The position numbers were made by a program, and so were the translations under genes. The notes beneath the pieces were generated by a model. It was not told the origin of the DNA. It saw only the letters and a program-made list of their open reading frames with translations, and ran no database searches. This document shows positions 3,081 to 59,272 of a stretch of DNA of 64,000 nt, piece after piece (the first letter of the stretch is position 1; the number at the start of each line of letters is the position of its first letter). This stretch comes from Loktanella sp. PT4BL. Its GTDB lineage: Bacteria; Pseudomonadota; Alphaproteobacteria; Rhodobacterales; Rhodobacteraceae. The DNA lies in contig NZ_QJJL01000008.1 in NCBI RefSeq assembly GCF_003201935.1, forward strand, positions 1 through 64,000, read 5' to 3'.

Positions 3081-3497
3081 TCAGTGTTCCCGATCACACA
3101 GACCATGGTCGGACAAGGACGCCAGAACGTAGCAATCTTCGGATACACCGCTGCCGTCACAGCCCTTCGATATCCGAACCAGTTCCTTTTCCAAGGCTTT
3201 CAGTTGTTTGATCTTTGCACGCACGCTCACCAACTGCGATGTCGCAATACTGTTCGCTGCCTCGCACGAGCGGTCCGGATGATCCTGCAATTCAATCAAC
3301 GATAAGATTGCTTCGATAGAAAAGCCCAGATCACGGGCGTGGCGGATGAAGCTCAACCGCTCTAATCCATCCTTGTCGTATCGCCTTTGGTTACCTGCCG
3401 TGCGTTCAGCCTCAGCTAGTAGCCCCATTTCCTCATAATAGCGGATGGTCGGGACTTTGACCTTTGTTCGCTTGGAAAGCTCACCGATGGAAAACAT
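3081..3497 (-). CDS. MerR-family metal regulator, ZntR/CadR/PbrR-like (module A)
   Basis: A 138-residue MerR regulator with an N-terminal winged HTH (FSIGELSKRTKVKVPTIRYYEEMGLL), a dimerisation helix and a Cys-containing C-terminus. Cys78 (in DRSCEA) matches the helix cysteine of ZntR, CadR and PbrR that CueR lacks, and Cys113, Cys122 and Cys134 could complete a divalent-metal site. The start is the ATG at 3495-3497; the upstream extension of the frame covers the operator. It is divergent from the transglutaminase gene, with the MerR-type promoter 12 bases upstream of its own start, and is likely autoregulatory. The metal (Zn, Cd, Pb or other) is inferred, not known. Confidence 0.9.
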   Translation of the reverse strand: MFSIGELSKRTKVKVPTIRYYEEMGLLAEAERTAGNQRRYDKDGLERLSFIRHARDLGFSIEAILSLIELQDHPDRSCEAANSIATSQLVSVRAKIKQLKALEKELVRISKGCDGSGVSEDCYVLASLSDHGLCDREH

Positions 3498-3508
3498 GAA
3501 AAAACCTC

Positions 3509-3539
3509 TTGAACCTCTAGTCACTAGAGATCGTATATG
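3509..3539 (+). promoter_or_regulatory. MerR-type promoter/operator of module A
   Basis: -35 TTGAAC (3509-3514), a 19-bp spacer and -10 TATATG (3534-3539). The spacer holds a perfect dyad CTCTAGT-C-ACTAGAG (3515-3529). An over-long 19-bp spacer with a central dyad is the hallmark of MerR-activated promoters. It drives the transglutaminase-CDF-methyltransferase operon starting at 3568. Confidence 0.9.
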
Positions 3540-3567
3540 ACTTGGGACACAGACAAAAGGCTTTCCC

Positions 3568-4338
3568 ATGTCCCACGATTATCTCTCCGAAACGCCACTT
3601 TTGGACTATCGCGTACCCGCAATTCAAGAGCTGATCGCACAGCGCGGCTGGACGCGATTATCATACGAAGATCGCATTGGTGCTGCCTATGAATTCGTGC
3701 GGAATGACATCCTCTTTGGCTACAACGCCGATGACGCACTACCTGCCTCTTGTGTGCTGGCAGATGGCTATGGGCAGTGCAATACCAAGGGGACCCTACT
3801 CATGGCACTCCTACGTGCCCTAGAGATACCTTGCCGGTTTCACGGATTCACAATCGACAAGGGATTACAGCGGGGAGTGGTGCCAGAACTGATCTATCCG
3901 CTTGTACCACGCAGCATCATCCATTCTTGGATCGAGGTGCAGCAGGACGGCACTTGGTTGGACCTCGAAGGCTTCATTTTGGACCAAGGGGTTCTTACGG
4001 CTCTTCAGGCGGCGTTTCCCGAACGCGACACACTTTGCGCCTATGGGGCCGGAACGGATTGCCTGCAGAAGCCTGATGTCGCATGGGCTGGCCAAAGCAC
4101 CTACATCCAGAAAACCGGGATCAATCGCGATTTTGGCGTTTTTGATAACCCCGACGCATTCTATGCCACTCACCGTCAACTCACCGGACTACGCGGCCTA
4201 ATCTATCGGCACATCATACGACATTGGATGAACCGGCGGGTCGGACAAATGCGCGAAGGCGTCATTCCTGTAATTCCTGGAGGGGAGACACACCTTGTTC
4301 CGGGGATAGCGCACCCTCACACGAAGGAGGCTGTATAA
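3568..4338 (+). CDS. Transglutaminase-like cysteine peptidase-fold protein (module A)
   Basis: A 256-residue protein with a transglutaminase-core fold. Candidate triad: Cys71 in DGYGQCNTKG, His119 in IIHSWIEV and Asp132 in LDLEG. No signal peptide is seen, so it is probably cytoplasmic. The family includes peptidases, amidases and cross-linking enzymes; the substrate here is unknown. It is the first gene of a MerR-controlled operon and overlaps the next start by one base (TAATG), so translation is likely coupled. A homologue similar along the whole length lies at 12485-13240 in module B, also directly behind a MerR-type promoter, so this enzyme appears to be a core part of the metal response. 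Confidence 0.85.
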   Translation: MSHDYLSETPLLDYRVPAIQELIAQRGWTRLSYEDRIGAAYEFVRNDILFGYNADDALPASCVLADGYGQCNTKGTLLMALLRALEIPCRFHGFTIDKGLQRGVVPELIYPLVPRSIIHSWIEVQQDGTWLDLEGFILDQGVLTALQAAFPERDTLCAYGAGTDCLQKPDVAWAGQSTYIQKTGINRDFGVFDNPDAFYATHRQLTGLRGLIYRHIIRHWMNRRVGQMREGVIPVIPGGETHLVPGIAHPHTKEAV

Positions 4339-4976
4339 TGTCGGGTTGTTGCGGACATGACGCCAAATTTGACGGCGTTTCAGACGACTACAAACGACGG
4401 CTTTGGATCGTCATTGCGCTCAACGCGACGATGTTCGTGGTCGAGATGACGGCGGGCCACTTGGCCAAATCACAAGCCTTGCAAGCCGATGCCCTCGATT
4501 TTGCAGGCGACGCGCTGACCTATGGCATTTCGCTTGCGGTGATTGGGGCCTCGATAACCGCGCGGACGAATGCCGCGCTGTTTAAGGGCCTCAGCCTCCT
4601 CTTGATGGGTCTCTGGGTTTTCGGATCGACCGTCTATCGCGTGTTCTATGTCGGCGTTCCCACAGCAGAAATTATGGGTGTTGTCGGCTTCCTCGCCCTG
4701 CTGACAAACTTGGCCAGTGTGTTTCTTTTGGTCCGCTACAAGGATGGCGATGCAAACGTGCGGTCGGTTTGGCTGTGTTCACGCAATGACGCTATCGGCA
4801 ACGTGGCGGTGATGTTCGCCGCACTAGGTGTCTGGGGCACTGCCAGCGGTTGGCCCGATTTGATCGTTGCGGCGATTATGGCTGGGCTGTTCCTGTCATC
4901 TGCGTTCCAGATTGTCAGACAGGCACTCGCAGAAAAGAGAGAGATGATGAACCACGAACACGCGGACGCGGGATAA
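4338..4976 (+). CDS. Short atypical CDF-like cation transporter (module A)
   Basis: A 212-residue inner-membrane protein of the cation diffusion facilitator fold with about six membrane helices. The N-terminus carries CCGHD. The TM2 metal site is DxxxD (Asp54, Asp58), but the TM5 position reads RNDAIGN, so the usual HxxxD is replaced by a DxxxN-like pattern. The cytoplasmic C-terminal domain of classical CDFs is missing; the tail ends with HEH. The ATG overlaps the upstream stop. The protein at 13336-13965 has the same unusual pattern, so the two define a subfamily. Divalent-metal efflux is the likely role, but the altered site leaves substrate and direction open. Confidence 0.75.
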   Translation: MSGCCGHDAKFDGVSDDYKRRLWIVIALNATMFVVEMTAGHLAKSQALQADALDFAGDALTYGISLAVIGASITARTNAALFKGLSLLLMGLWVFGSTVYRVFYVGVPTAEIMGVVGFLALLTNLASVFLLVRYKDGDANVRSVWLCSRNDAIGNVAVMFAALGVWGTASGWPDLIVAAIMAGLFLSSAFQIVRQALAEKREMMNHEHADAG

Positions 4977-5524
4977 TGCAGGTATTGTTGGTTATCTTAG
5001 GGCTGAGCATCGCAGGCGCGGCACTGGCGGCATTCATTTGGTCGATCGCCTATCCAACTCGGCGCATTTGGCCACCAAACCGCTACACTGCGGTCACGCC
5101 TATTCTGGTCTGGGTTCCAACCTTTGCGCTGTTCGGTAGTTTGTTTGTTCTTGGTATCTGGGGCTGGGGCTCTTTGGACTTGCCTAATTGGCTGCGCTTT
5201 GGAGTCGGGATACCGTTCATCTTAGCGGGCAACATTGTTGTTTGGTCAGAGGTTTCACACTTTGGCGTGCCCCAAACCGGAGGGGCTATAGGTTCACTGC
5301 GCACCGCAGGCATGTATCGATACTCGCGCAACCCTCAATACATGGCCGATATCGCCATTGTCAGCGGCTGGATGGTCCTTTCAGCGGCACCTTGGACTCT
5401 CGTAGTTGCTATCGCTGCTATCGTCGTTCTTGTTGCAGCCCCATTCGCAGAAGAACCATGGCTTGAGGAACAATACGGCCAAGCGTTCGATGCGTACCGC
5501 GCCCGTGTTAGGCGGTTCTTGTAA
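4976..5524 (+). CDS. Isoprenylcysteine carboxyl methyltransferase / PEMT-like membrane protein (module A)
   Basis: A 182-residue membrane protein with four to five hydrophobic segments and the SAM-binding signature of the ICMT/phospholipid methyltransferase group: YRYSRNPQYMADI in the middle and EEPWLEEQYG...Y...VRRFL at the C-terminus. Bacterial members methylate lipids or unknown small substrates, and prenylated proteins are not expected here. Its ATG overlaps the CDF stop (TAATG), so it is the third translationally coupled gene of module A. A homologue ends module B at 11024-11581. The association with metal-regulated transglutaminase and CDF genes suggests envelope lipid modification, which is inference. 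Confidence 0.8.
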   Translation: MQVLLVILGLSIAGAALAAFIWSIAYPTRRIWPPNRYTAVTPILVWVPTFALFGSLFVLGIWGWGSLDLPNWLRFGVGIPFILAGNIVVWSEVSHFGVPQTGGAIGSLRTAGMYRYSRNPQYMADIAIVSGWMVLSAAPWTLVVAIAAIVVLVAAPFAEEPWLEEQYGQAFDAYRARVRRFL

Positions 5525-5631
5525 GTTCTTCCGCGCATGCAAGGCTGGGGTCGAAAAAGAGGGGCATCAATCGAGGTAGTTTAGGCATGCGTCAAAAAGG
5601 AGGGTTTTAAATAAATAAATCCTAGCAAAAA

Positions 5632-6969
5632 TTACCGACCAGTTTCCCGTTGTGACATCCTTGGCCAATGCGGATGATAGTCGTCTATGACAATAGGGTG
5701 ACTGTGGGTTCGTCCATCCTGCACATGCGGGTGACCACTTGGGAGATCTGCATGTGAGTGGCGCAATGACCCGCTATCCTTCTTTGGCCATAAGGCAACT
5801 CCACTGATCAATCCAACTCCCGCGAGCAATGCCAGGATTGCAAAGGCCATCGCGGGACCGGCAGCTGTGATCAGCCAGCCTGCAAGGGGATACGTGATCA
5901 GCCAGCAAGCATGTGACAAGGCGAACTGTGCGGCATAGACGGCAGGCCGATCCTCGGCATGGGCTGATCGCTTGAGCAATCGACCCGATGGGGTCAGCAC
6001 AACAGAATAACCGATTCCGATAATGAACCACCCTGCAAGAAGCGGGACCCATTGAACCTGATATACCAGTGACATGAGGGACAGGCCCAGTAGCGCTGCA
6101 ACCAGCACTGTCGCACCGACGATCATTACGGGGCGGTCGGGACGGTGATCTAACAATCGGGGCAACAGGAGTGCTGCCAGCATTGACCCACCGCCAAAGG
6201 CCCCCAGTGCTATTGCAACATGCGTTTCACCTAGGTCTAAATCTGAGCGGACCAGAACCACTGTATTCACCAGCACCATCGCGCCCGCCGCCGCTGCGGC
6301 AAGGTTGAGCGACAAAAGCCCCCGTAGGCGCGGTGTGGCGAGGTAAATCCGCATGCCCCGAGTAGTACGATCATAGATGCCGCGTGTAGCCGCAGGCTGC
6401 GGACTGGGCAGCAGAACAGACACCACAAGTAAGGCCGAGCCCACGAACCCGATCACTGTGCCAAAAAAAAGTGCCTGATAACTGACCAAGGTCAGTAGGA
6501 TCGCAGCCAGCATCGGGCTGATGATGTTCTCAAGGTCGTAGGCCAGCCGCGACAGTGACAAGGCGCGGGTGTAACGCTCTTCTTCGGGCAGGATGTCCGG
6601 GATCGTGGCTTGAAACGTGGGCGTGAACGCGGCGGAGGCGGATTGCAGCACGAAGATCAGGATGTAGACCTGCCAAACCTCAGACACGAAAGGTAGGCAA
6701 AGTGCTACTGCTGCACGGATGAGATCAAGGCTGACCAGCATCTTTCGTCGCGGCCAGCGGTTGGCAAAGGCCCCCGCTATCGGCGCGATCCCCACATAGG
6801 CCACCATCTTGATCGTAAAAATAGCGCCCAGAATAAGACCCGCTCTTTCGCCAGACAGATCATAGGCCAACAGGCCGAGTGCGATGGTCGCAAGACCGGT
6901 GCCAAGCAGCGCGACGATCTGAGCCAGAAATAAATGGCGATACGTGCGGTCGGCGAGAACAGAGAGCAT
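5632..6969 (-). CDS. MFS efflux transporter with His-rich C-terminus (Ni/Co type)
   Basis: A 445-residue major facilitator protein with twelve predicted membrane helices and the loop 2-3 type motif ANRWPRRK. After the last helix comes a cytoplasmic tail rich in histidine (HSHADLPSGHPH and HSHPIVIDDYHPHW), typical of nickel/cobalt exporters such as the NreB-like group. It lies nine bases downstream of a DmeR-like repressor, in the same orientation and probably the same transcript. Across the operator are a His-rich exported protein and a HupE-like permease. Nickel or cobalt efflux is therefore the best call; specificity is inferred from context and the His tail. Confidence 0.8.
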   Translation of the reverse strand: MLSVLADRTYRHLFLAQIVALLGTGLATIALGLLAYDLSGERAGLILGAIFTIKMVAYVGIAPIAGAFANRWPRRKMLVSLDLIRAAVALCLPFVSEVWQVYILIFVLQSASAAFTPTFQATIPDILPEEERYTRALSLSRLAYDLENIISPMLAAILLTLVSYQALFFGTVIGFVGSALLVVSVLLPSPQPAATRGIYDRTTRGMRIYLATPRLRGLLSLNLAAAAAGAMVLVNTVVLVRSDLDLGETHVAIALGAFGGGSMLAALLLPRLLDHRPDRPVMIVGATVLVAALLGLSLMSLVYQVQWVPLLAGWFIIGIGYSVVLTPSGRLLKRSAHAEDRPAVYAAQFALSHACWLITYPLAGWLITAAGPAMAFAILALLAGVGLISGVALWPKKDSGSLRHSHADLPSGHPHVQDGRTHSHPIVIDDYHPHWPRMSQRETGR

Positions 6970-6978
6970 ATTGATCCC

Positions 6979-7251
6979 TCAAAGGTATTTGGTAATGGCC
7001 TTAAAATCCGCCACGGTGGACGCGTTACCCGTTCCTGTAACTGCCTCGTCAAGACAATGATCTATGTGGTCTTGGATCAAGGTGCGTTTGGCTTGCAGAA
7101 TGGCTTTCTCAACAGCGTGGAGTTGTTGAGCGATATCAGTGCAGGGTCTATTGCCTTCGATCATTGCGATGACGCTCTGAAGGTGGCCATTGGCACGTTT
7201 CAGCCGCTTTACGATATCAGGGTGGGTTGCATGAATGTGGTGTTCTGTCAT
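6979..7251 (-). CDS. dmeR: DmeR/RcnR-like metal-sensing repressor (CsoR family)
   Basis: A 90-residue all-helical CsoR/RcnR-family repressor. The family metal ligands appear as Cys37, His62 and Cys66 with neighbouring His65, plus an N-terminal His-rich arm (TEHHIHATH) of the kind that contributes ligands in nickel/cobalt sensors. The core VKRLKRANGHLQSVIAMIEG followed by CTDIAQQLHAVEKAI closely resembles DmeR of rhizobia, which senses Ni and Co. It precedes the MFS pump in a shared transcript and is divergent from the His-rich exported protein, with a C-tract/G-tract operator between. Binding of Ni or Co should relieve repression in both directions. Confidence 0.85.
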   Translation of the reverse strand: MTEHHIHATHPDIVKRLKRANGHLQSVIAMIEGNRPCTDIAQQLHAVEKAILQAKRTLIQDHIDHCLDEAVTGTGNASTVADFKAITKYL

Positions 7252-7261
7252 AAGAAATTCG

Positions 7262-7279
7262 TAACCCCCCTAGGGGGAT
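7262..7279. promoter_or_regulatory. RcnR/DmeR-type operator, CCCCCTAGGGGG
   Basis: A perfect CCCCCTAGGGGG core (7266-7277) in an AT-rich frame matches the C/G-tract dyads bound by CsoR/RcnR/FrmR-type tetramers. It sits 10-30 bases upstream of the DmeR-like gene and about 40 bases upstream of the divergent gene at 7316, so it can control both. Confidence 0.85.
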
Positions 7280-7315
7280 ATGACAAGTGGGCATAGATCC
7301 ATAGAAATAGGCGCA

Positions 7316-7666
7316 ATGACACAGCGAATTGGACCGATATTTAGACTTATGCTAACCGTCATTCTGACGGTCGGACTGGTGCTGTCGTCCACCGCGCGTA
7401 TTGCGTCCCATAATCCCGTCAGTCCCGTTGAAATGGCTTCTAAACAGCATTCAGAGACAGAAACGCACGGTCATGCTCACGATAAGGATGTGCAGGCACA
7501 TCACGGGCATGCGCACGATGTGTTGGACCACGATCATTCTTCTGCCCTCCTGCCGCCGCGCAGAAGCGTCGCTGTTTTCGTGCCAACGCGTTCTGATTGG
7601 GTGACAGCCCACAGCAGTTTACCGGGACGCGGCGAATTTGATCTGGATCGACCTCCGCGAGGGTAG
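7316..7666 (+). CDS. His-rich exported metal-binding protein
   Basis: A 116-residue protein with an N-terminal signal peptide or anchor (MTQRIGPIFRLMLTVILTVGLVLSS, quoted in part) and a mature region rich in His and Asp: HGHAHDKDV, HHGHAHDVLDHDH. I recognise no enzymatic domain. It probably binds nickel or cobalt in the periplasm, buffering it or handing it to the HupE-like permease encoded next. The ATG at 7316 is chosen over an earlier frame start because the extension would run into the DmeR operator. It is the first gene of the right-hand arm of the Ni/Co module. Confidence 0.7.
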   Translation: MTQRIGPIFRLMLTVILTVGLVLSSTARIASHNPVSPVEMASKQHSETETHGHAHDKDVQAHHGHAHDVLDHDHSSALLPPRRSVAVFVPTRSDWVTAHSSLPGRGEFDLDRPPRG

Positions 7667-7720
7667 CAATGCGCCTTTGAGCGCTTTCCCCTCACACTTC
7701 AACAAAGCGGAAATTTGAAA

Positions 7721-8455
7721 ATGATACACAATCGATCCAATAGGTCGGGGGTGATGTCGCATCATATGCGGCACACCTTGATCTTTATGACACTGGTCTT
7801 GCTGGGGGTCCTTGCGTCAGCGACCACAGCGGTGGCCCATGCCGTCACACTTGGCGATCAGGGCTATATCCAAGAAATCACCGGGGTGAACATCATCCCG
7901 TTCATCTACCTCGGTGCAAAACATATGGTCACGGGATATGACCACATCCTGTTTCTCATGGGTGTGATCTTCTTTCTCTACGGCATGAAAGAAATCGGCA
8001 TCTACGTCACTTTGTTTGCTGTGGGCCACTCGACCACAATGCTCGCAGGCGTCTGGTTCAACTTTGGCATCAACAGCTACATAATTGACGCGATCATCGG
8101 GTTTTCAGTGGCGTACAAAGCGCTGGATAATCTGGGTGCATTCCAGAAATGGTTCGGCGTCCAGCCCAACACCAAAATGGCAACGCTGATCTTCGGGTTC
8201 CTGCATGGCTTTGGTCTGGCATCCAAGATCATCGACTATGATATTTCGCCAGACGGGCTTTTGCCGAACCTTATCGCCTTCAATGTTGGCGTTGAAATCG
8301 GCCAGCTTCTCGCGCTTGCAGCCATTTTGGTCGTGATGACCCGTTGGCGGGCAACCCCTTCGTTCGTGCGCCAAGCCTACGGTGCCAATGTTCTCATGAT
8401 GGTCGCTGGCTTCACCCTGATGGGGTTTCAGATTGCTGGCTACATCGTCACTTAA
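7721..8455 (+). CDS. HupE/UreJ-type nickel/cobalt permease
   Basis: About 244 residues with a cleavable signal (ending TTAVAHA) and roughly six further membrane helices. Diagnostic HupE/UreJ_2 motifs are present: GYDHILFLMGV, AVGHSTTMLAG and FLHGFGLASK, whose histidines and acidic residues line the metal path. An alternative TTG two codons upstream and an ATG at 7754 are possible starts. The family moves Ni or Co across the inner membrane. Its association with a DmeR-like repressor and an efflux pump suggests it takes part in metal homeostasis in the module, rather than uptake for a hydrogenase or urease, neither of which is encoded nearby. Confidence 0.85.
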   Translation: MIHNRSNRSGVMSHHMRHTLIFMTLVLLGVLASATTAVAHAVTLGDQGYIQEITGVNIIPFIYLGAKHMVTGYDHILFLMGVIFFLYGMKEIGIYVTLFAVGHSTTMLAGVWFNFGINSYIIDAIIGFSVAYKALDNLGAFQKWFGVQPNTKMATLIFGFLHGFGLASKIIDYDISPDGLLPNLIAFNVGVEIGQLLALAAILVVMTRWRATPSFVRQAYGANVLMMVAGFTLMGFQIAGYIVT

Positions 8456-8470
8456 TACTCGGAGATACCA

Positions 8471-9304
8471 ATGAACAAAAATTTTGACATCGGTAGGGCA
8501 CCAGTCCCACCCCTTCGCGCTGAGCCACGCTCCAGCAAAATGCCATCACAAGACGGACATATCCGCGGTATTCCGTCCTCCTCGGGTGGTTTGATCCGTG
8601 CGACGATTGGATCAGCCATAGCGGCTGGCGCAATTTTGACCCTGTTTTGGCTTCCTGCCGAATACGGGATTGATGCGACGGGTTTGGGCCGTGTTATGGG
8701 CCTCACCCAAATGGGCGAGATCAAGCAACAGCTTTATGCCGAAGCGGCAGCAGATGACGCAGCTGCTGCGCAACCCTCACCCGTTATAATTGGATCGTCG
8801 ACTACGACTGCAACAGACCAACAGGTCCTTGAACGACTTGCAGGCATCGAAGCTCAGATTGCGGCCATCGCGGCGGTGGTCGGCACGGTGCCTGCTTCGC
8901 CCCTGGTAGCTTCCCAACAAAATGTGACGTCTCCAGATGTCGTTGCTGTGGCCCCAGAGCCAGCCACACCAGTAGCAGCGGTTGATACAGGTTGGCGCGA
9001 TGAGGTCAGCTACACGCTGGAGCCCACAGAAGGCGTGGAAGTTAAGCTGGTGATGGAAGAAGGTGCTGTCGCCGTGTTTGAGTGGACCGCCAATGGAGCA
9101 GTTGTGAACTATGATACCCATGCTGACGGGGGTGGGCAGGGCACAGTGTCTTACGAACAAGGCCGAGGTGTCGCAGACCAAACGGGCGAGCTTGTCGCTG
9201 CTTTTACGGGAAATCATGGGTGGTTTTGGCGCAATCGCACCGATGCTCCAGTATTGCTCACACTGCGGACACGCGGGGATTACAGTGAGATGAAGTTGCC
9301 TTGA
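8471..9304 (+). CDS. Membrane-anchored periplasmic protein (transmembrane anchor protein)
   Basis: A 277-residue protein with one N-terminal membrane helix (GLIRATIGSAIAAGAILTLFWL), an Ala/Pro-rich linker with a short coiled segment (LERLAGIEAQIAAIAAVVG) and a C-terminal beta-rich domain from about residue 175 (WRDEVSYTLEPTEGVEVKLVMEEG, quoted in parts), ending in GNHGWFWRNRT. Proteins of this architecture commonly follow HupE-like genes and are labelled transmembrane anchor proteins; their molecular role is not known. It starts 15 bases after the permease and closes the Ni/Co arm before a terminator-like hairpin. Confidence 0.7.
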   Translation: MNKNFDIGRAPVPPLRAEPRSSKMPSQDGHIRGIPSSSGGLIRATIGSAIAAGAILTLFWLPAEYGIDATGLGRVMGLTQMGEIKQQLYAEAAADDAAAAQPSPVIIGSSTTTATDQQVLERLAGIEAQIAAIAAVVGTVPASPLVASQQNVTSPDVVAVAPEPATPVAAVDTGWRDEVSYTLEPTEGVEVKLVMEEGAVAVFEWTANGAVVNYDTHADGGGQGTVSYEQGRGVADQTGELVAAFTGNHGWFWRNRTDAPVLLTLRTRGDYSEMKLP

Positions 9305-9310
9305 AAGAAC

Positions 9311-9340
9311 AATGGCCCCGGCAGCATCGTGGGGGCCATT
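9311..9340 (+). terminator. Hairpin after the Ni/Co module
   Basis: AATGGCCCC (9311-9319) pairs perfectly with GGGGCCATT (9332-9340). It begins six bases after the stop of the anchor protein. No T-run follows, so termination may be weak. The remaining stretch to 9537 shows no gene. Confidence 0.6.
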
Positions 9341-9537
9341 CGAAATATTAGCGAAAACCAAACAAAAAAGATCGTTTTGAACGGTTCACCGAAAGCTGCA
9401 ATTGGTGCATATGCAGCGAACTCACACTTCGTCCGACTCTTCGGACCTTGCCACCGACAGAGACGAACGGCCGGTATTTCAGTAACACAGCAGGCTCAAA
9501 TCTCTGCTGTTTGATGGCAACGCTGCCTTTGTCAGCG

Positions 9538-10233
9538 CTAGTAGTTCACCTGTTCGAAGCCGTAGTTGCCCTCATAGTCACGCCAGTCGACGAAGACAGA
9601 TCGGTGATAAATACCCGGGCAATTCTGGCCCCAACGTTCAAGTCCCAGATGGGCCTCGGGCAGGGCAGTTATGGAAGATCGGTGCCATGAAAAATCGCCT
9701 TGGGTCCCGTAGGTGCCGAGGACCACGGTCGCGCTTCGGTTGCAATCCCCATCGCGCCCGGACTCGTGCTGTCGTGCATACCGTACATCGAAGACGCGGA
9801 TGGACCGCACGAAATTGAACTCTGGCCCGCTGATATCGATGTCCGCGCGGTCCTGAACAAGCCGCAGCGTGAAGTCTGTGGGAACGAGATTATCTACTGG
9901 CAAGGACTGAAACGGTCGACGGCTGTCGGTCCGGTACAAGGCTTCAAAGATGCGGCCAGCGTTGTTTGATAGCCGATCGCTCTCATAGGAGGCGCCCATG
10001 GGACAGCGCCAGATTTGCAGCGGCGGTTCCACTGGCCAGGGCGTGATCCGCCTGATAAATTCGGCGCGAGCCCGTGCGCACGGGACGGATGCAGGCCAGC
10101 CGCCAGACAGGCACAAGAGGATCGCGCAGTCGATCGGGTATGTCTGCGCGCGGGCGGGTGCCGGCAGCGAAAAGCTTGTCACAGTCAAAGCGACAGCGAC
10201 CGAGGGGAGAAGCTTCTTGATTAGACGGTGCAT
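9538..10233 (-). CDS. Exported protein of unknown function
   Basis: A 231-residue protein with a clear signal peptide (cleavage after APARAQ) and a strong GGAGG ribosome site nine bases upstream of the ATG at 10231-10233. The mature part has several Cys near its N-terminus (YPIDCAILLCLSGGW, VPCARAR, IWRCPMG) and a Trp/Tyr-rich C-terminus (SVFVDWRDYEGNYGFEQ). The Cys arrangement suggests a disulfide-bonded periplasmic or surface protein. I recognise no domain. The upstream dyad at 10271-10286 matches the one at 126-139, linking it to the other exported orphan. It may be element backbone. Confidence 0.75.
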   Translation of the reverse strand: MHRLIKKLLPSVAVALTVTSFSLPAPARAQTYPIDCAILLCLSGGWPASVPCARARAEFIRRITPWPVEPPLQIWRCPMGASYESDRLSNNAGRIFEALYRTDSRRPFQSLPVDNLVPTDFTLRLVQDRADIDISGPEFNFVRSIRVFDVRYARQHESGRDGDCNRSATVVLGTYGTQGDFSWHRSSITALPEAHLGLERWGQNCPGIYHRSVFVDWRDYEGNYGFEQVNY

Positions 10234-10270
10234 GCTGCGAAACCTCCGGTAGAGGAGTTCAGCATACATA

Positions 10271-10286
10271 CGATAATATACTATCG
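10271..10286. promoter_or_regulatory. Dyad CGATAATATACTATCG, second copy of the TATAC palindrome
   Basis: A 16-bp inverted repeat with one mismatched pair, nearly identical to the palindrome at 126-139. It lies 38 bases upstream of the exported protein at 9538-10233, in promoter position. Confidence 0.5.
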
Positions 10287-10358
10287 CAATACTAAGTATA
10301 ACTACGCATAATGAAGTTTATGTTAAAAATAGAAGAATTAGCCAGCTTTCCTTGGCTT

Positions 10359-10928
10359 TCAGAAAATCCTGACCTGGGTTCCCACTTCTGCCAGAGCAAA
10401 AAGTTCAGCAATGTGCTCGTTGTAGAGTCCAATACAGCCGTTTGATGATTGCCGACCGATTTTGCGCGTGTCACCGGTTCCGTGCACCCGGTAATACTGC
10501 CACGACAGATAAAGTGCGTGTGTTCCAAGCGGGTTGTCAGGACCCGGCGGCCAATAGTCAGGCCATTCGGGGTTACGCTCTTTCATTGATGGAGTGGGCC
10601 GCCAACTCGGCCCCTCCACCTTCCTTATAACCTTTGTATATCCTCGGCGGGTCAACTCTTCCGAGGCAGGGACACTCGACGGGTAGAGTTTGTAGACACT
10701 TTCGTCTTCCGACCAATACTGGACTGCACGCGAGTCGATGTCGCACAAAATTGCACCGTGCTGAAGGTTATCGAAGTGGTCTTGCCAGGAATCCGCACTA
10801 AAGGACGAAATATTTCTGCGTACCGCCGAGGGCTCCTGCTCCTGAGCACGGAGAAGGGAAGGTGTTGCCAGAAGTCCGATCATAGTTGTCGAGACGAACT
10901 GGCGTCGTGTTTTCAGTGTCTTTGTCAT
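10359..10928 (-). CDS. L,D-transpeptidase (YkuD domain), copy 1
   Basis: A 189-residue exported L,D-transpeptidase. The N-terminus has a twin-arginine-like signal (TRRQFVSTTMIGLLATPSLLRAQ, in part). The YkuD catalytic signature is present: His149 in VHGTGD and Cys165 in SSNGCIGL. These enzymes make 3-3 cross-links in peptidoglycan or attach proteins to it in the periplasm. A MerR-type promoter with a CCTCTAG/CTAAAGG dyad lies at 10958-10988, so this enzyme appears metal-inducible. Two other family members are encoded at 28651-29199 and 32047-32727. L,D-transpeptidases are known targets of copper poisoning, which gives a possible reason for extra copies. Confidence 0.85.
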   Translation of the reverse strand: MTKTLKTRRQFVSTTMIGLLATPSLLRAQEQEPSAVRRNISSFSADSWQDHFDNLQHGAILCDIDSRAVQYWSEDESVYKLYPSSVPASEELTRRGYTKVIRKVEGPSWRPTPSMKERNPEWPDYWPPGPDNPLGTHALYLSWQYYRVHGTGDTRKIGRQSSNGCIGLYNEHIAELFALAEVGTQVRIF

Positions 10929-10957
10929 ATGCCTTGCCTCACTCTTTTGTTGGCTGA

Positions 10958-10988
10958 CGGATACGACCTTTAGTAGCTAGAGGTTCAA
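10958..10988 (-). promoter_or_regulatory. MerR-type promoter upstream of L,D-transpeptidase copy 1
   Basis: On the minus strand: -35 TTGAAC (10983-10988), a 19-bp spacer, -10 TATCCG (10958-10963). The dyad is CCTCTAG-CTA-CTAAAGG, with one mismatched pair. It resembles the module A operator at 3509-3539 and points at the gene starting at 10928. Confidence 0.8.
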
Positions 10989-11023
10989 CTGAAAAACGAT
11001 GACGTTCTCGTGAGGCAGCGAGT

Positions 11024-11581
11024 TTACAAGTATCGACGCGTTTCAGCGCAATAATCGCGATACTTGGAGCCGTATTGTTCATGCAGCCATGGCTCTTCCG
11101 CGAGCGGGGCAAGGGCCAGCGCGGCAACTCCAACGATGACGATAGGCCAAACCCAAGATGAGGCGAAGAAAAGACCAAAACCTATCAGGATGGACATGTC
11201 AGCAAGGTATTGCGGATGCCGCAAGAAACGGTAGAGACCCGAAGTGATCAACTCGTCTTTCGCACCGCTAGTGGCTTTCAGTCCAATGCTGAATGCTCCC
11301 CACCAGACAATCAGATTTCCGGTTGCGATCAAGAACGGCCCGACCGCCCAACGGAGCGCGTTGGTCATAGAAGCGGATTTCCAATCCAAAATGCCCAAAC
11401 CGATCACCGCCCCAAACACGGCCAATGTGAGTCCCCATGCAATGTTTGGTATGACTGAATGCTCTCTGTTTGGAGGCCAGATGCGCTCGGACGGGCGGGC
11501 GATCGACCAAAGGAGCGCACCAATCAAAACCAGACCGGACAGCAGGCCAATGACCACTAGTATGCCTTGGGCACTCGTCAT
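11024..11581 (-). CDS. Isoprenylcysteine carboxyl methyltransferase / PEMT-like membrane protein (module B)
   Basis: A 185-residue paralogue of the protein at 4976-5524. It shares the N-terminal helix followed by ARPSERIWPPNREH, the LYRFLRHPQYLADM signature and the C-terminal EEPWLHEQYG...ETRRYL. It has about five membrane segments and is probably a SAM-dependent methyltransferase on a membrane substrate. Its ATG overlaps the stop of the upstream canonical CDF gene (11578-11581), so it is the last gene of module B. That the methyltransferase is kept in both modules argues it is functionally tied to the metal response. Confidence 0.8.
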   Translation of the reverse strand: MTSAQGILVVIGLLSGLVLIGALLWSIARPSERIWPPNREHSVIPNIAWGLTLAVFGAVIGLGILDWKSASMTNALRWAVGPFLIATGNLIVWWGAFSIGLKATSGAKDELITSGLYRFLRHPQYLADMSILIGFGLFFASSWVWPIVIVGVAALALAPLAEEPWLHEQYGSKYRDYCAETRRYL

Positions 11582-12495
11582 GGGCGGTGCCCGAATACCT
11601 GCGCCTCCTGATGCGCATTGTCGCTCGCTTCGAATTCAAGCGTGGAATGCTCGATTGAGAAACGTTCATGCAGCACCGATTTGACGTTTTCTTTAATCTT
11701 GTCGGCCTCACCCATCCTTTCGCGTTCGACGACTATATGGCAGTCCAATGCCGCAGCGTGCTCCTGCATTTGCCACAGGTGGACATGATGCACGTCCACA
11801 ACGCCATCGACACTCTGGATCGCTCTGACTACGTCATTTCCATCAATATCTGGTGGGCTCCCAAGCATCAGGGTTCGAATTGGGCCCCCTATTTCGGTGA
11901 AGGACAAATACAGGATGTAGAGCGCGATGCCGATGGTGATGGCCGGATCAACCCAACGCATTTCATAGAGTATGATGAGCGTCCCGCCGACTATGACGGC
12001 CACTGAAGCCAACGCATCCGAAAGGTTGTGGAGAAAAAGCGCACGGATGTTCACGCTCCCCTTCTGCATCGAATAGGTCAGCATTGCGGTCAGCGTGTCG
12101 ACCACAAGCGCGATTCCACCGAGAATGACGACGGTCCACCCCATGACTTCGGGTGGATCAATCATGCGCATGCCACCTTCGTAGATCAGATAGAAGCCGA
12201 TCACGATGAGGGTGGTGTAGTTGATCAGGGCTGCGACGATTTCGACCCGGCCATATCCGAAGGTCATGCGCTCATCAGCCGGGCGGCGCGCGATCCTGCG
12301 CGCGGCAAAGGCAATGACAAGCGAAGCCATATCGGAAAAGTTGTGCAGCGCATCGGCGATCAGTGCCAGACTACCCGAGAATATGCCCCCGACGATCTGC
12401 GCAACGGTAAGAAGCCCGTTCGCCCAGATGGCGATGGCAACCCGCCGGTCCCCAGAATTCGGATCGATATGCGCGTGCCCGTGGTCATGTAGCAT
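11578..12495 (-). CDS. Cation diffusion facilitator, CzcD/ZitB type
   Basis: A 305-residue classical CDF exporter: a His-rich N-terminus (LHDHGHAHID), six membrane helices and a cytoplasmic C-terminal ferredoxin-like domain (VVDVHHVHLWQMQEHAAALDCHIVV, in part). Both canonical metal-site motifs are intact, HNFSD in TM2 and HNLSD in TM5. It exports Zn, Cd or Co from the cytoplasm in exchange for protons. It overlaps the upstream transglutaminase gene by 11 bases and the downstream methyltransferase by four. Module A has no equivalent, so module B combines a canonical and an atypical CDF. Confidence 0.9.
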   Translation of the reverse strand: MLHDHGHAHIDPNSGDRRVAIAIWANGLLTVAQIVGGIFSGSLALIADALHNFSDMASLVIAFAARRIARRPADERMTFGYGRVEIVAALINYTTLIVIGFYLIYEGGMRMIDPPEVMGWTVVILGGIALVVDTLTAMLTYSMQKGSVNIRALFLHNLSDALASVAVIVGGTLIILYEMRWVDPAITIGIALYILYLSFTEIGGPIRTLMLGSPPDIDGNDVVRAIQSVDGVVDVHHVHLWQMQEHAAALDCHIVVERERMGEADKIKENVKSVLHERFSIEHSTLEFEASDNAHQEAQVFGHRP

Positions 12496-13240
12496 TGGCA
12501 GGCTCCGCGTGCGCGTGTGTCGCGCGTCGGTCAGTCTTCAGGCGGCCGCTGCGGAAACCACGTACGCGCGCATTCATCCAGTGGCGTATTATATGACGGT
12601 AAAGGGCGCCACGCAGCCATCCAAAGGATTGCTCATGGGACAAATAGAAGGCGTCCGGCGTATCGTACACGCCAAAATCTTGCACAATGCCGGTTTTCTG
12701 AATGTAGGTATCTTCTCCGTTCCAGGCGACGGGAGGCGCGCCAAGGCAATCCGTGCCCGCGCCATAACCGCAGAGACTTTCTGTGTCCGAGAATGACGTT
12801 TGCAGGACATCGAGGAAAGCGTCATCCAGGATGAAGCCTTCAAGGTTGATCCAGGCACCTTGAAATTCGATCTCGACCCATGAGTGGAGAATTTCCTGCG
12901 GAGCAAGCGGATACACCAGCTCAGGGACAACACCGCGCTGCAAGCCTTTGTGGATCGTAAACCCATGTAAACGACAGCGAATACCAACACCGCGTAGCAA
13001 TGCCATCAAGAGCGTGCCTTTGGTATTGCACTGCCCGTAGCCGTCAGAAAGCACCTCGGATGCGGGGATATCGTCAGCTCGATTGTATCCGAACGCGATT
13101 TCATTCCGAACGAAATCATAGGCGGCTCCGATCCGATCGTATTCGGATAAGCCGCGCCAGCTGCGGTTCTCAATTAGATGCGCAAGAGGCGCGGCCTCAA
13201 AATCCAGTAGTTTGGTGGGTACAAGTAGGGGGTCGGTCAT
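12485..13240 (-). CDS. Transglutaminase-like protein (module B)
   Basis: A 251-residue homologue of 3568-4338, similar over the whole length. Cys71 (DGYGQCNTKG) and His119 (ILHSWVEI) are conserved, but the third triad position is Asn132 (INLEG), where the module A protein has Asp. Papain-type enzymes use Asn there, so activity is still possible. No signal peptide is seen. It is directly behind its own MerR-type promoter (13276-13306) and overlaps the canonical CDF gene. Its substrate is unknown; joint occurrence with metal exporters and a methyltransferase in both modules is the main clue. Confidence 0.85.
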   Translation of the reverse strand: MTDPLLVPTKLLDFEAAPLAHLIENRSWRGLSEYDRIGAAYDFVRNEIAFGYNRADDIPASEVLSDGYGQCNTKGTLLMALLRGVGIRCRLHGFTIHKGLQRGVVPELVYPLAPQEILHSWVEIEFQGAWINLEGFILDDAFLDVLQTSFSDTESLCGYGAGTDCLGAPPVAWNGEDTYIQKTGIVQDFGVYDTPDAFYLSHEQSFGWLRGALYRHIIRHWMNARVRGFRSGRLKTDRRATHAHAEPANAT

Positions 13241-13275
13241 ATGTAACGGGTCGCTCCTCGAATCGTCTTAGAACA

Positions 13276-13306
13276 AGACTAATTGCTATAGTCACTGTAG
13301 CTTCAA
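13276..13306 (-). promoter_or_regulatory. MerR-type promoter inside module B
   Basis: On the minus strand: -35 TTGAAG (13301-13306), a 19-bp spacer, -10 TAGTCT (13276-13281), dyad CTACAGT-G-ACTATAG. It lies between the short CDF gene and the transglutaminase-like gene and points at the latter, giving the second half of module B its own metal-responsive start. Confidence 0.8.
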
Positions 13307-13335
13307 TCCTTTCTTTTAGAAAAAATCTCCCGCAA

Positions 13336-13965
13336 CTATTTGCCCGTATGAACTGCTTTGTGGTGTTCGCCGTGTGCGTCGCGCAGAATGTCGATACCTC
13401 CCCAGGCCGCGATCCCGGCGACAATCACGCCGACGACGAGGTCCGGCCAGTTGGTTCCCAGCCAGGCGACGAGGCCGCCAGCCACGACGATTCCGAGGTT
13501 CGCGGCGAAATCGTTGTAACTGAAGGTGTTGGCCGCGCGGATGTTGACATCCGGATCTTTGAGCTTAGCGAGCAGCCAGACGCAGACTGCGTTGATAGCC
13601 GCCGCGATCAGGGCCATGGCGATCATGATCGTCCCGAGCGGATCTGACCCGCCGATGTAGCGGCGCCATGCATCGTAAAGGATACCAGCGGCGAACAGGA
13701 TCAGCAGCCCGCCGGAAACGTTCGCCGCCCCGCGTTTCCATTTGGCGGATCGGGACAAAGCGAAAAGGCTGATCGCGTAGACGAAGCTGTCGGAAAGGTT
13801 ATCGAGCCCGTTGGCTATCAGGGCACTTGAGTCGCCGAAGGCGCCTGTTGCGAAAAAGGCCACGGCCAAACCGATATTGAGCGCCAGAACGATCAAAAGT
13901 GTCCGTCTCTCCATTGAATCTTGTCTAGCGGCCATGTTGTGGTTCCAGTTTGTGTTGTACGACAC
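13336..13965 (-). CDS. Short atypical CDF-like cation transporter (module B)
   Basis: A 209-residue homologue of 4338-4976. TM2 reads GLDNLSDSF (DxxxD) and TM5 reads SYNDFAANLG, so the usual HxxxD is again a DxxxN pattern. The C-terminal cytoplasmic domain is absent and the tail is HGEHHKAVH. I took the GTG at 13965, with GGAAG seven bases upstream; an ATG at 13935 is an alternative. It lies 52 bases downstream of the MerR gene and is probably co-transcribed with it. Likely an inner-membrane divalent-metal transporter of unproven substrate. Confidence 0.75.
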   Translation of the reverse strand: MSYNTNWNHNMAARQDSMERRTLLIVLALNIGLAVAFFATGAFGDSSALIANGLDNLSDSFVYAISLFALSRSAKWKRGAANVSGGLLILFAAGILYDAWRRYIGGSDPLGTIMIAMALIAAAINAVCVWLLAKLKDPDVNIRAANTFSYNDFAANLGIVVAGGLVAWLGTNWPDLVVGVIVAGIAAWGGIDILRDAHGEHHKAVHTGK

Positions 13966-14017
13966 AATAACTTCCGCGGCTGATTTGCGTTCCAGCCGGG
14001 ATGTTGGCTGACTTCCT

Positions 14018-14446
14018 TCAGGCCCCGATTTCCTCGTGCTCGGTCAAGCATTCAGAATGGTCCCGCAAGACTTCCAAAACACGGCAATCGGAGGATTTTC
14101 CACCGCTGCACTCATGCACCATCCGCTTGAGCTCTTTTTGAAGCGCTTCTAGCCTGGCCATTCTTTGCTCGACCTGAATGAGCTGGCGCCGCGCGATGGC
14201 GTCTGCCTCATGGCAGGGCCGGTTCGGATCATCGGAAAGATCCAAAAGCTCACGAATGGCATCCAGTGAAAAGCCGAGCTGACGGGCATGCCGGACAAAC
14301 GACAAGCGGTCGAGTTGCGTTTCATCATAACGTCGCTGACCGCCTGCGGTTCTTCCGGGCTGTGGCATCAGACCAATTTCCTCGTAATAACGAATGGTCT
14401 GCACCTTTGTACCAGTCTTTTTGCCGAGTGTTCCGATCGTGAGCAT
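14018..14446 (-). CDS. MerR-family metal regulator, ZntR/CadR/PbrR-like (module B)
   Basis: A 142-residue paralogue of the module A regulator: HTH LTIGTLGKKTGTKVQTIRYYEEIGL (in part), dimerisation helix, and Cys78 (NRPCHE), Cys113, Cys121 and Cys133. The helix Cys and the spaced C-terminal Cys pair put it with divalent-metal sensors, not CueR. The start is the ATG at 14444-14446. It is divergent from the SCO-to-CtaG run, whose MerR-type promoter lies 110 bases away, and upstream of the short CDF gene. It may control the module B, SCO and other TTGAAC-type promoters, possibly in overlap with the module A regulator. Confidence 0.9.
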   Translation of the reverse strand: MLTIGTLGKKTGTKVQTIRYYEEIGLMPQPGRTAGGQRRYDETQLDRLSFVRHARQLGFSLDAIRELLDLSDDPNRPCHEADAIARRQLIQVEQRMARLEALQKELKRMVHECSGGKSSDCRVLEVLRDHSECLTEHEEIGA

Positions 14447-14555
14447 ATACAAGCCTCTTGAATGTGAAGCGACTGTAGGTTTACTGGGTGGGACTTGCAA
14501 GGAGCAGCCCTTACTCACAAGCGCGTGATTCAGCGACATACAAGGAAAAAGAGGA

Positions 14556-14586
14556 TTGAACCTCTAGTTGCTGGAGGATGTAGACG
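14556..14586 (+). promoter_or_regulatory. MerR-type promoter of the SCO-to-CtaG run
   Basis: -35 TTGAAC (14556-14561), a 19-bp spacer, -10 TAGACG (14581-14586), dyad CCTCTAG-TTG-CTGGAGG with one mismatched pair. It points at the twelve-gene run starting at 14624. Confidence 0.85.
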
Positions 14587-14623
14587 CACACGAAATGAAA
14601 GAATCACGGGCGGGCAGATAGCA

Positions 14624-15223
14624 TTGAAACTGACGGCATTTCAGAAAGCACTATGGGGTCTGACGGGCATTGCAACGCTGGCTTTTGCTTGGCTACTGTT
14701 TTGGTCAGACTTTAGGGCAGATTTATCTGGTGATGGTGAATCAGCATTTCGAGCCGCTTTCGAGCTGACCGACCATCGCGGTATGGTCCAAACAGAAGAT
14801 GATTTCTCGGGGCGCTGGATGCTTGTGTTCTTCGGCTTTACAAATTGTCCTGACATTTGCCCAACTACGCTGTCTGAGGTAGCGGCCGTGATGGATGGTC
14901 TCGGGAACGAGGCGGGTAAGGTTCAGCCCATTTTTGTTACCATCGATCCCGAACGCGACACGCCCAGTGTCCTCGCAGAATACGTGCAACTGTTCGACGC
15001 GGGGATCATTGGCCTTACCGGCACTTCGCAACAAATCGCGGAGACATCCGAATCTTTCCCAATCTTCTTTGAACGTATCGAAGAAGCGTCTGCGCCGGGT
15101 GGCTACACGATGGGGCACACGTCGCATCTTTTCCTTTTTGACCCTGAAGCAGGTTTTGCGGATTCTTGGTCTTATGGGACCCCAGCAGAAGAAATCCTTG
15201 CCGATCTGAAAGCGAGGATCTAA
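14624..15223 (+). CDS. SCO1/SenC-family copper chaperone/thiol oxidoreductase, copy 1
   Basis: About 199 residues with an N-terminal membrane anchor (ALWGLTGIATLAFAWLLFW) and a periplasmic thioredoxin-like domain. The copper/thiol motif is FTNCPDICPTT (Cys75, Cys79) and the conserved His is in MGHTSHLFLFD. SCO proteins deliver or reduce the CuA site of cytochrome oxidase. The frame has no ATG downstream of the promoter; the TTG at 14624 is the likely start, with only a weak GGGCGGG upstream. Upstream in-frame codons lie inside the MerR promoter. It is the first gene of a continuous operon to 23651. A second SCO is encoded at 16792. Confidence 0.85.
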   Translation: MKLTAFQKALWGLTGIATLAFAWLLFWSDFRADLSGDGESAFRAAFELTDHRGMVQTEDDFSGRWMLVFFGFTNCPDICPTTLSEVAAVMDGLGNEAGKVQPIFVTIDPERDTPSVLAEYVQLFDAGIIGLTGTSQQIAETSESFPIFFERIEEASAPGGYTMGHTSHLFLFDPEAGFADSWSYGTPAEEILADLKARI

Positions 15224-15228
15224 CAAGC

Positions 15229-15651
15229 ATGCCTTACAAGACAGGAGAAACGGCGCTTGGCCTGGCGTGGTCCATTGCGTTAGTCGCATCGCTCGCCGTT
15301 TTGTTTATCGGAGAGGTGTTGGGGCAGACACCCTGTGTGCTCTGCTGGTTCCAGCGCGCTTTCATGTTCCCTCTCGCAATAATACTGGGCCTTGGTCTGT
15401 GGTGGCAAGACCGCAAAGTTGGTCGCTACGGCATCGCCCTAGCCCTTGGTGGCGCGGCGGTCGCCCTCTGGCATATGGGTCTTTATGTCGGCGTAATCCC
15501 TGAGCGGATTCAACCCTGCACCGCGACAGGCCCATCCTGCACAGATGACAATCAATTGATCTTCGGCATTCCGATCCCGCTTATGGCGCTCGCCGCCTTC
15601 ACACTTATCGCCGCGCTGTCGGCCCTTTCCTTGAAGGAGACACAAGAATGA
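15229..15651 (+). CDS. DsbB-family quinone-coupled disulfide oxidase, copy 1
   Basis: A 140-residue inner-membrane protein with four helices. Cys36/Cys39 in PCVLCWFQR form the first redox pair; the second pair lies in QPCTATGPSC. The ATG at 15229 is five bases after the SCO stop. DsbB reoxidises a DsbA-type partner, and the next gene, overlapping by four bases, encodes such a partner. The pair probably serves disulfide formation or Cys redox control for the copper proteins of this operon. A second DsbB is encoded at 48016-48507. Confidence 0.9.
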   Translation: MPYKTGETALGLAWSIALVASLAVLFIGEVLGQTPCVLCWFQRAFMFPLAIILGLGLWWQDRKVGRYGIALALGGAAVALWHMGLYVGVIPERIQPCTATGPSCTDDNQLIFGIPIPLMALAAFTLIAALSALSLKETQE

Positions 15652-16307: not shown

Positions 16308-16327
16308 CAAAGAAAGAGCAAAACTCT

Positions 16328-18788: not shown

Positions 18789-18791
18789 TCC

Positions 18792-19247: not shown

Positions 19248-19259
19248 ATAGAATATAAT

Positions 19260-20042: not shown

Positions 20043-20046
20043 CTGT

Positions 20047-31617: not shown

Positions 31618-31648
31618 CGTGTAATGTCTACAGTGGCTTTAGGTTCAA
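31618..31648 (-). promoter_or_regulatory. MerR-type promoter of zntA
   Basis: On the minus strand: -35 TTGAAC (31643-31648), a 19-bp spacer, -10 TACACG (31618-31623), dyad CTAAAGC-C-ACTGTAG, imperfect. It points at zntA and the following L,D-transpeptidase. Confidence 0.75.
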
Positions 31649-59244: not shown

Positions 59245-59272
59245 CATGCGGCTCCTCTAAACTCTTGCGATA

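Follow-up and report, generated by a model that had tools for sequence, protein, structure and literature searches.

Metal efflux operons are usually treated as a sensor plus a pump. In the Cad/Pbr operons, the regulator CadR or PbrR accompanies CadA/PbrA or a cation diffusion facilitator (CDF), together with the signal peptidase PbrC/CadC. The subject here is a 64,000-nucleotide stretch of the Loktanella sp. PT4BL genome (hereafter the window; part of a 3.92-Mb genome, contig G000:C8) and, within it, two modules, A (3081-5524) and B (11024-14446), in which a gene for a transglutaminase-like protein (TGase) lies beside a CDF. Its genomic company in several bacterial groups, where it accompanies metal pumps and follows a promoter of the metal-sensor type, makes this TGase a probable and so far neglected aid to metal detoxification. 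The modules resemble the Cad/Pbr operons in their metal-sensor MerR regulator, their promoter with a 19-bp spacer and dyad, their exporter and the presence of LspA in the regulon (pMOL30 annotation; PMC1526738, in its accessible portion, which gives spacers of 19-20 bp for MerR promoters). Unlike those operons, they add the TGase, an L,D-transpeptidase and a methyltransferase resembling isoprenylcysteine carboxyl methyltransferase (ICMT). The words transglutaminase, methyltransferase and transpeptidase do not occur in the accessible portion of PMC1526738.

Two of the accessory proteins have described counterparts. CdfX of Cupriavidus metallidurans is a zinc exporter lacking a cytoplasmic domain, is under ZntR control and is encoded next to the cad region on a genomic island (PMC11580412, accessible text, in which neither transglutaminase nor methyltransferase is mentioned). 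The short CDFs of the window resemble CdfX in lacking this domain and in their MerR-type control, a likeness of architecture and regulation. The methyltransferase resembles CzcN/NccN of the czc and ncc operons in that it belongs to the same Pfam PEMT/ICMT superfamily and is encoded with metal efflux genes (PMC7563307; PMC3056050, accessible portions). However, CzcN from the pMOL30 sequence is only 27% identical to methyltransferase B over 78 residues and 24% identical to methyltransferase A over 82, and its partner is a resistance-nodulation-division (RND) system whereas that of the window methyltransferase is a CDF. Searches for transglutaminase in the main texts of open-licence papers found, among those listed, none that links such a protein to metal efflux; one review (PMC12857756) contains a mention of transglutaminase. 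LapP, which emerged from the search for transglutaminases, is unrelated as far as the accessible part of its description goes (PMC4338557).

What, then, might a transglutaminase contribute between a sensor and a pump? The reading preferred here, with a probability of about 0.48, is that both modules are built around a cytosolic cysteine enzyme of transglutaminase fold, which is induced by metal and assists the export of soft divalent metals (Zn, Cd, Pb). It draws on four features found in each module, namely a metal-sensor MerR, a MerR-type promoter 5' of the TGase, co-orientation and overlap of the TGase with an exporter (the short CDF in A, the full-length CDF in B) and an intact catalytic triad. 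Metal would bind the MerR regulator and open the promoter, leading to joint production of TGase and exporter. The TGase would still be catalytic and would have gained a thiolate in Cys157, in most cases alongside Cys89. It would bind or sense the metal and act on a metal ligand of the cytosol or on a metal-damaged substrate, cleaving or forming amide or thioester bonds, and the metal would thereby be passed to the exporter. The methyltransferase would be a separate CDF accessory, and the regulon would also take in the L,D-transpeptidase and a row of SCO, Dsb and LspA genes, which may serve to repair the envelope. These components differ in strength. An accessory role of the TGase in metal detoxification is very probable; zinc, cadmium or lead are the likely metals, and catalysis, which would make the protein a cysteine acyltransferase or hydrolase that has acquired a further thiolate, is likely too. 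Binding of metal through Cys157 is more tentative, at a little under even odds, and any particular substrate named for the enzyme would most probably be wrong. A more ambitious version appears unlikely: a widespread, horizontally moving family of metal-gated TGases, themselves metal-induced, in which metal bound by Cys157 switches on the making or breaking of a bond in a cytosolic metal ligand that feeds interchangeable exporters, a CDF or a P1B-type ATPase. If true, bacteria would have a new enzymatic layer of detoxification between the metal sensor and the pump.

The gene families of both modules were confirmed by Pfam and NCBIfam (Table 1). Module A consists of a MerR gene divergent from TGase, short CDF and methyltransferase, and in module B the genes for MerR, short CDF, TGase, CDF and methyltransferase all lie on one strand and are followed by the L,D-transpeptidase. 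An original prediction, made from the sequence of the window, had assigned to both modules a MerR regulator, a TGase-like protein, a short CDF and an ICMT/PEMT-like methyltransferase, with a further CDF in B, and Pfam agrees with it. Every gene is open at the place it gave, although the starts of MerR A (3497), methyltransferase A (4976) and MerR B (14446) needed correction. The overlaps of one to eleven bases that it described are borne out by the gene coordinates: one base each for TGase/short CDF and short CDF/methyltransferase in A, and 11 bases for TGase/CDF and four for CDF/methyltransferase in B. Its view that the modules are no recent duplication also stands, since the proteins of A and B have diverged (identity 63% for the TGase, 53% for MerR, 44% for the methyltransferase, 31% for the short CDF) and their TGases belong to separate groups of the tree. 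The list of shared parts holds for the TGase family; the short CDFs, at only 31% identity, come from distinct lineages, and neither the short CDF nor the methyltransferase proved obligatory (see below). Both short CDFs have a Cation_efflux domain without the cytoplasmic ZT_dimer, as in CdfX-like proteins, and both have replaced the His of the fifth transmembrane helix that belongs to the canonical CDF site. Short CDF B probably starts near 13914, as in an annotated relative (L016).

Table 1. Coordinates of the features of modules A and B and of related features elsewhere in the window (aa, amino acids).
Feature	Position	Strand	Basis and remarks
MerR regulator A, CadR/PbrR-like	3081..3497	-	Pfam MerR_1/MerR-DNA-bind; NCBIfam best CadR-PbrR, below cut-off; three conserved Cys
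MerR-type promoter of TGase A	3509..3539	+	-35 TTGAAC, 19-bp spacer, dyad 7/7, -10 TATATG; end 38 bp 5' of TGase A
TGase A, 256 aa, no transmembrane segment	3568..4338	+	PF01841, 36 bits (cut-off 23); alignment; hydropathy
Short CDF A, 212 aa, without ZT_dimer	4338..4976	+	PF01545; alignment; transmembrane helix 5 His replaced by Cys
ICMT/PEMT-like membrane methyltransferase A	4976..5524	+	PF04191, 54 bits
L,D-transpeptidase (YkuD), end of module B	10359..10928	-	PF03734; own MerR-type promoter
MerR-type promoter of L,D-transpeptidase	10958..10988	-	19-bp spacer, dyad 5/7
ICMT/PEMT-like membrane methyltransferase B	11024..11581	-	PF04191, 55 bits; PF04140, 28.6 bits
Full-length CDF exporter with ZT_dimer	11578..12495	-	PF01545 and PF16916; TIGR01297, 248 bits
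TGase B, 251 aa; Cys71/His119/Glu134; Cys157	12485..13240	-	PF01841, 46.3 bits (cut-off 23); model pLDDT 82; conservation
MerR-type promoter of TGase B	13276..13306	-	TTGAAG, 19-bp spacer, TAGTCT, dyad 6/7; end 45 bp 5' of start; looser pattern only
Short CDF B, without ZT_dimer	13336..13914	-	PF01545; alignment; transmembrane helix 5 His replaced by Phe; open frame reaches 13965
MerR regulator B, metal-sensor type	14018..14446	-	Pfam; NCBIfam best CueR; PDB best 5gpe and CadR
MerR-type promoter of divergent SCO/Dsb/PCuAC/ZIP/LspA row	14556..14586	+	Strict operator pattern
Divergent row: SCO, DsbB, DsbA-like, PCuAC, SCO, M23, DUF411, ZIP, LspA	14621..20550	+	Pfam; adjoins module B in many loci
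Three L,D-transpeptidases (YkuD)	10359-10928, 28651-29199, 32047-32724		Two with own MerR-type promoter, one 3' of Zn/Cd-type ATPase
MerR-type site of Zn/Cd-type P-type ATPase	31618-31648	-	Looser pattern; 40 bp before the gene
MerR-type site of P-type ATPase gene ending at 59247	59283-59303	-	Strict pattern

The neighbours of the TGase were surveyed in the best 80 of at least 564 loci, which are near relatives of the window, and in 60 further hand-picked loci including four paralogues and four AraC-type rows. Neighbours were labelled by BLAST against proteins of the window or of chosen loci, so unlike metal genes can escape labelling. A metal gene (CDF, MerR or ZntA-like) lies within 2.5 kb of the TGase in 79/80 and 47/60 loci, respectively. 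Among the best 80, MerR was found within that distance in 74, the full CDF in 77, the short CDF in 44 and the methyltransferase in 29, and within 4.5 kb the L,D-transpeptidase in 23 and SCO1 in 68; the further 60 contain MerR in 46, full CDF in 31, short CDF in 31, any CDF in 44 and methyltransferase in 17. The 11-base overlap between TGase and full CDF recurs in 62 pairs of the first set and 19 of the second. The TGase adjoins a CDF in Roseobacters, in Acinetobacter, where CadR is divergent from TGase-CDF, and in genomes from other classes within the phylum, for which two loci served as queries and had their CDF, short CDF and MerR confirmed by Pfam. Elsewhere the pump is a P-type ATPase. In the Betaproteobacteria Diaphorobacter and Acidovorax CadR is divergent from ATPase-TGase, one Deinococcus has ATPase-TGase-ArsR with overlaps, and in one Flavobacterium a regulator with a marginal Fur match, the TGase and an ATPase stand beside a Czc-type RND pump. 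All four of these partner ATPases pass the Cd-type model TIGR01512, with 485-517 bits against a cut-off of 313.5. Judged from gene neighbourhoods, the constant part across loci is the TGase and the partners change: it stays with the pump while exporter and regulator vary (CadR/MerR, ArsR/SmtB, a marginal Fur match). This holds in three phyla, of which two are represented by a single locus each. That it follows the pump, and mostly keeps a metal-sensor promoter even when alone, suggests an enzymatic step missing from the usual description of these operons.

The distribution of the family appears patchy, as for horizontally moved genes. By tblastn the TGase is present in 196 plasmid records, 179 of them at a coverage of at least 80%, and stretches with module B are 90-94% DNA-identical to Roseobacter-group plasmids among 20 listed records; one annotated relative has the genes of module B in the same order. 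In whole genomes, counts including the centre genomes, the TGase was found in 3/337 of the class and 14/398 of the phylum at E up to 1e-100, and in 1/321 of another class of the same phylum, that of G393. At E up to 1e-40 it is present in 41/147 and 12/150 genomes of two families in the phylum of G393 and in 2/18 of the order of G695. A DNA search with positions 3081-14539 as query matched 118 Klebsiella and 44 Enterobacter plasmid records somewhere along its length.

A strict MerR operator pattern has five matches in the window against 0.02 expected, preceding TGase A, the L,D-transpeptidases at 10359 and 32047, SCO1 and a P-type ATPase gene. A looser pattern gives 12 matches (mean in shuffles 1.88, largest shuffle 6) and adds sites 5' of TGase B and of the Zn/Cd-type ATPase at 29227-31587. 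Since such sites precede both P-type ATPases, MerR regulators may control these too. In each of the six sites inspected, a spacer of 19 bp separates a TTGA box of -35 type from a -10 box starting with TA; TGase A and MerR A share one intergenic region, as do SCO1 and MerR B. Across loci, operators were counted with up to four mismatches within 200 bp, in upstream regions made distinct by exact identity alone. They precede the TGase in 67/79 B-type and 19/25 A-type regions, SCO1 in 57/65, L,D-transpeptidase 1 in 17/17 and L,D-transpeptidase 3 in 3/8, and were seen in 6/41 regions for short CDF B, 1/63 for the CDF, and none for L,D-transpeptidase 2 (0/6), the methyltransferases (0/34) or DsbA (0/54), with 0-0.6 in letter-shuffled controls. 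A more general promoter rule, which is descriptive because it was written after the promoters had been seen, applies 5' of the TGase in 78/98 distinct regions with metal neighbours (shuffles 0-0.6), in 0/23 AraC-linked TGases and in 0/4 paralogues. Nine Cys157 genes stand alone, and five of these have the promoter, or seven at a dyad of 5/7. Among them, L139, L200, L208, L219 and L220, with no adjoining CDF or MerR label, carry the operator 38-63 bp upstream, with 0-4 mismatches (in L139 an ATPase labelled CopA lies within 2.5 kb), and L296-L298 have a 19-bp-spacer promoter with another dyad. In the ninth, L224, flanked by insertion sequences, no such site was found.

Both TGases belong to PF01841, and hydropathy shows no transmembrane segment in either. 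Their Cys-His-acid triad, which from the alignment and the fold we take to be Cys71, His119 and Glu134, is kept at each position in 63/64 dereplicated metal/operator rows, the remaining row having Tyr at 71 or a gap at 119 or 134. Triad and GQCNTK motif are kept equally in the metal, AraC-linked and paralogous groups (the acid aligned with Glu is Asp in four paralogues); catalysis therefore looks ancestral and retained. Cys157, in contrast, distinguishes the metal group. It is present in 63/64 of the same rows (a gap in the other), and the position holds Ser in four AraC-type rows and Thr or Val in paralogues; a scan of all columns found no other column of this kind. In 45 further loci, all 26 without an AraC neighbour have Cys157, and the 19 with one have Ser (17), Gln (1) or Ile (1). 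In a table of 192 loci, Cys157 occurs in 159/162 metal-labelled loci, the others being the broken genes L214 (gap) and L215 (Leu) and the AraC-linked L302 (Ser), and in 4/30 without a metal label (L224, L296-L298), with another residue in 26/30. Some labels call for care: L302 is metal by label, since a czc/CDF cluster adjoins, and was grouped with AraC for the promoter counts; L224 was classed as metal by hand for the first tree and as 'none' by rule in the 192-locus table; L267 (Ser) and L274 (Gln) are AraC-linked and have, within 2.5 kb, a gene labelled CueR, which the metal rule does not count. L090 and L218 were omitted from the first tree because of their length. In the tree used to trace Cys157 and context, the AraC-linked rows fall into a single group of 16, with L211 in addition. 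Pfam recognised an AraC regulator in the three AraC-linked loci tried. These relatives form a natural control, with the same active site and neither such a promoter nor Cys157. The AraC-adjoining relatives are L141-L143, L211, L265-L274, L299-L303 and L306-L309, as a rule also without metal genes. Decayed or shortened TGases, with a stop, a lost catalytic Cys or adjoining IS66 genes, are L019, L020, L210, L214, L215 and L224.

In structure, the TGase model (predicted local distance difference test, pLDDT, 82) resembles the transglutaminase-like cysteine proteases 3isr and 3kd4, Streptococcus pyogenes TglA (9crn), the pseudomurein endoisopeptidase PeiP (8z4f) and arylamine N-acetyltransferases, none of which is known to be metal-induced. 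The best Foldseek match is 3isr (E 3.4e-5, template-modelling score 0.36), followed by TglA (E 6.8e-4), with PeiP, 3kd4 and the N-acetyltransferases at E 0.028 and above. A sequence search of the PDB gave nothing useful (3isr at E 0.034), and no relative was found among viral contigs.

As to the metal, the exporters argue for divalent ions. On the CadR-PbrR model TIGR02047, MerR A, for which it is the best NCBIfam model, scores 117.3 bits and MerR B 106.5 bits, both under the equivalog cut-off of 151.45. The best PDB sequence match of both is 5gpe (PbrR691), then CadR (6jgv), and in both regulators three Cys align that presumably bind the metal. The promoters have the 19-bp spacer and dyad of the CadR/PbrR type, a trait common to other metal-sensing MerR regulators.

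Several observations weigh against the proposed metal-induced, Cys157-bearing enzyme of Zn, Cd or Pb efflux. The best model for MerR B is CueR (118.7 bits, under its cut-off of 147.4), which lowers the odds for Zn, Cd and Pb; the row divergent from it encodes copper-type proteins (PCuAC, SCO), so that copper is a possible metal for module B; and three of the four partner ATPases also narrowly pass a copper model (400.5, 402.5 and 415.3 bits against 397). The general promoter rule applies to none of 11 distinct regions before the TGase in operons where the short CDF comes first. Within the family, the TGase occurs at E up to 1e-20 in 39/248 genomes, one of these (G1084) having a 32% paralogue, and is absent from the rest, and some copies have decayed (Tyr for Cys71 in L210; L214, L215 and L218 broken or short). 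The template-modelling scores are low, at 0.36 or less by query length, and residues 154-157 of the model have pLDDT below 50, making the modelled position of Cys157 unreliable. On the tree, Cys157 changes three times and context seven times. Only four well-supported independent pairs differ in context, one concordant in Cys157 and three without a difference, and this number is too small to demonstrate correlated evolution of Cys157 with metal context. Cys157 may thus be a mere clade marker, picked out by a scan of all columns. The strong form of the argument, in which Cys157 proves metal binding, was rejected for the same paucity of independent changes.

Could the protein act on metal without being an enzyme? 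Cys71, Cys89, Cys157 and His119 might bind metal and hand it to the exporter, making the TGase a metallochaperone or metal sink; Cys157 and Cys89 are additions of the metal group, and the frequent overlap of TGase and exporter genes suggests matched dosage. Such a role seems unlikely, since the triad and GQCNTK are just as strictly kept in the AraC-linked and paralogous groups, which places the active site under another constraint, and the other thiols are less constant: Cys165 is kept in only 47/64 rows, and Cys89 is Asn in 2/64 and is found too in some AraC-linked rows. An enzyme forming the ligand, by analogy with phytochelatin synthase, would instead transfer gamma-glutamyl groups on glutathione or a comparable thiol and so supply a chelator to exporter or cytosol. 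The fold is generally known for attack on gamma-glutamyl amides and the promoter is of a metal-induced type, but Pfam finds Transglut_core alone at E up to 0.01 and not the phytochelatin synthase family, and the TGase occurs in one Deinococcus and one Flavobacterium, organisms not known to rely on glutathione. A scheme restricted to glutathione was downgraded for this reason, and ligand formation as a whole looks improbable. The patchy, plasmid-rich distribution and the decayed copies would also suit a passenger carried on metal-resistance islands with no part in metal handling. However, lone copies keep the MerR-type promoter in 5-7/9 cases, the TGase adjoins two exporter families in three phyla and Cys71 is almost invariant in the dereplicated rows, all of which make a passenger very improbable.

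The original prediction had proposed a conserved unit that perhaps chemically modifies a membrane or peptide component in connection with metal export, and asked whether the two families co-occur. As one four-part system, such a unit would have TGase and methyltransferase act jointly on a peptide or lipid. TGase and methyltransferase families do so above chance. Among 248 family genomes, including that of the window, the methyltransferase is present in 23, of which 18 also have the TGase (Fisher p = 1.3e-12; shared-genome lists matched by eye), although one of the 18, G1140, has an AraC-linked TGase and only a fragment of the methyltransferase. The coupling to metal export is upheld by the metal genes beside the TGase, and the single four-part system is not, given that the methyltransferase is near the TGase in only 29/80 and 17/60 loci and the short CDF in 44/80 and 31/60. 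Nor do the parts stay together as proposed: the TGase is found without exporter or methyltransferase, and the methyltransferase without TGase. Of 28 fetched methyltransferase matches (two being pieces of one place), 23 have a CDF label directly beside them, and six of these (L315, L316, L318, L328, L333 and L334) show MerR-short CDF-methyltransferase or CDF-methyltransferase with no TGase in a stretch of about 3.5 kb, all except L333 coming from four genomes without any TGase match. These matches indicate that the methyltransferase pairs with a CDF and not necessarily with the TGase. A four-part system is therefore hardly probable, and the neighbourhoods point to two separable couples, TGase with exporter and CDF with methyltransferase.

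The motifs R-[HN]-P-Q-Y and E-E-x-W-L of methyltransferase B are kept in 21/21 aligned rows. PF04191 is above its cut-off in methyltransferases A and B and in CzcN, and there is a PDB match to 4a2n (E 1.8e-4). On the isoprenylcysteine carboxyl methyltransferase model NF040696, A and B reach only 18.6 and 37.3 bits against an equivalog cut-off of 160. The methyltransferase model (pLDDT 84.6) gave no Foldseek match at E <=0.001, the best related-looking one being a steroid 5-alpha-reductase at a weak E of 0.67. In L093, a short Cation_efflux protein is encoded directly 3' of the TGase.

The modules lie in a larger metal island, as the window also encodes P-type ATPases, ZIP, SCO, PCuAC, Dsb and envelope enzymes. 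L,D-transpeptidases, of which the window has three, are reported to be inhibited by copper and by no other metal salt tested (PMC11390936, accessible portion). Spare envelope enzymes, comprising DsbA/DsbB, SCO, M23, LspA, a PBP2-type transpeptidase and Lgt, are encoded at 14621-20550, 44299-46236 and 46288-47238, and are perhaps replacements for metal-sensitive host enzymes. The gene at 20638, considered as a penicillin-binding protein, was rejected as such since Pfam assigns it to penicillin amidase. A 243-residue protein encoded at 9538-10269 matches no Pfam family; homologues with 49-94% identity are encoded close to module B in many loci.

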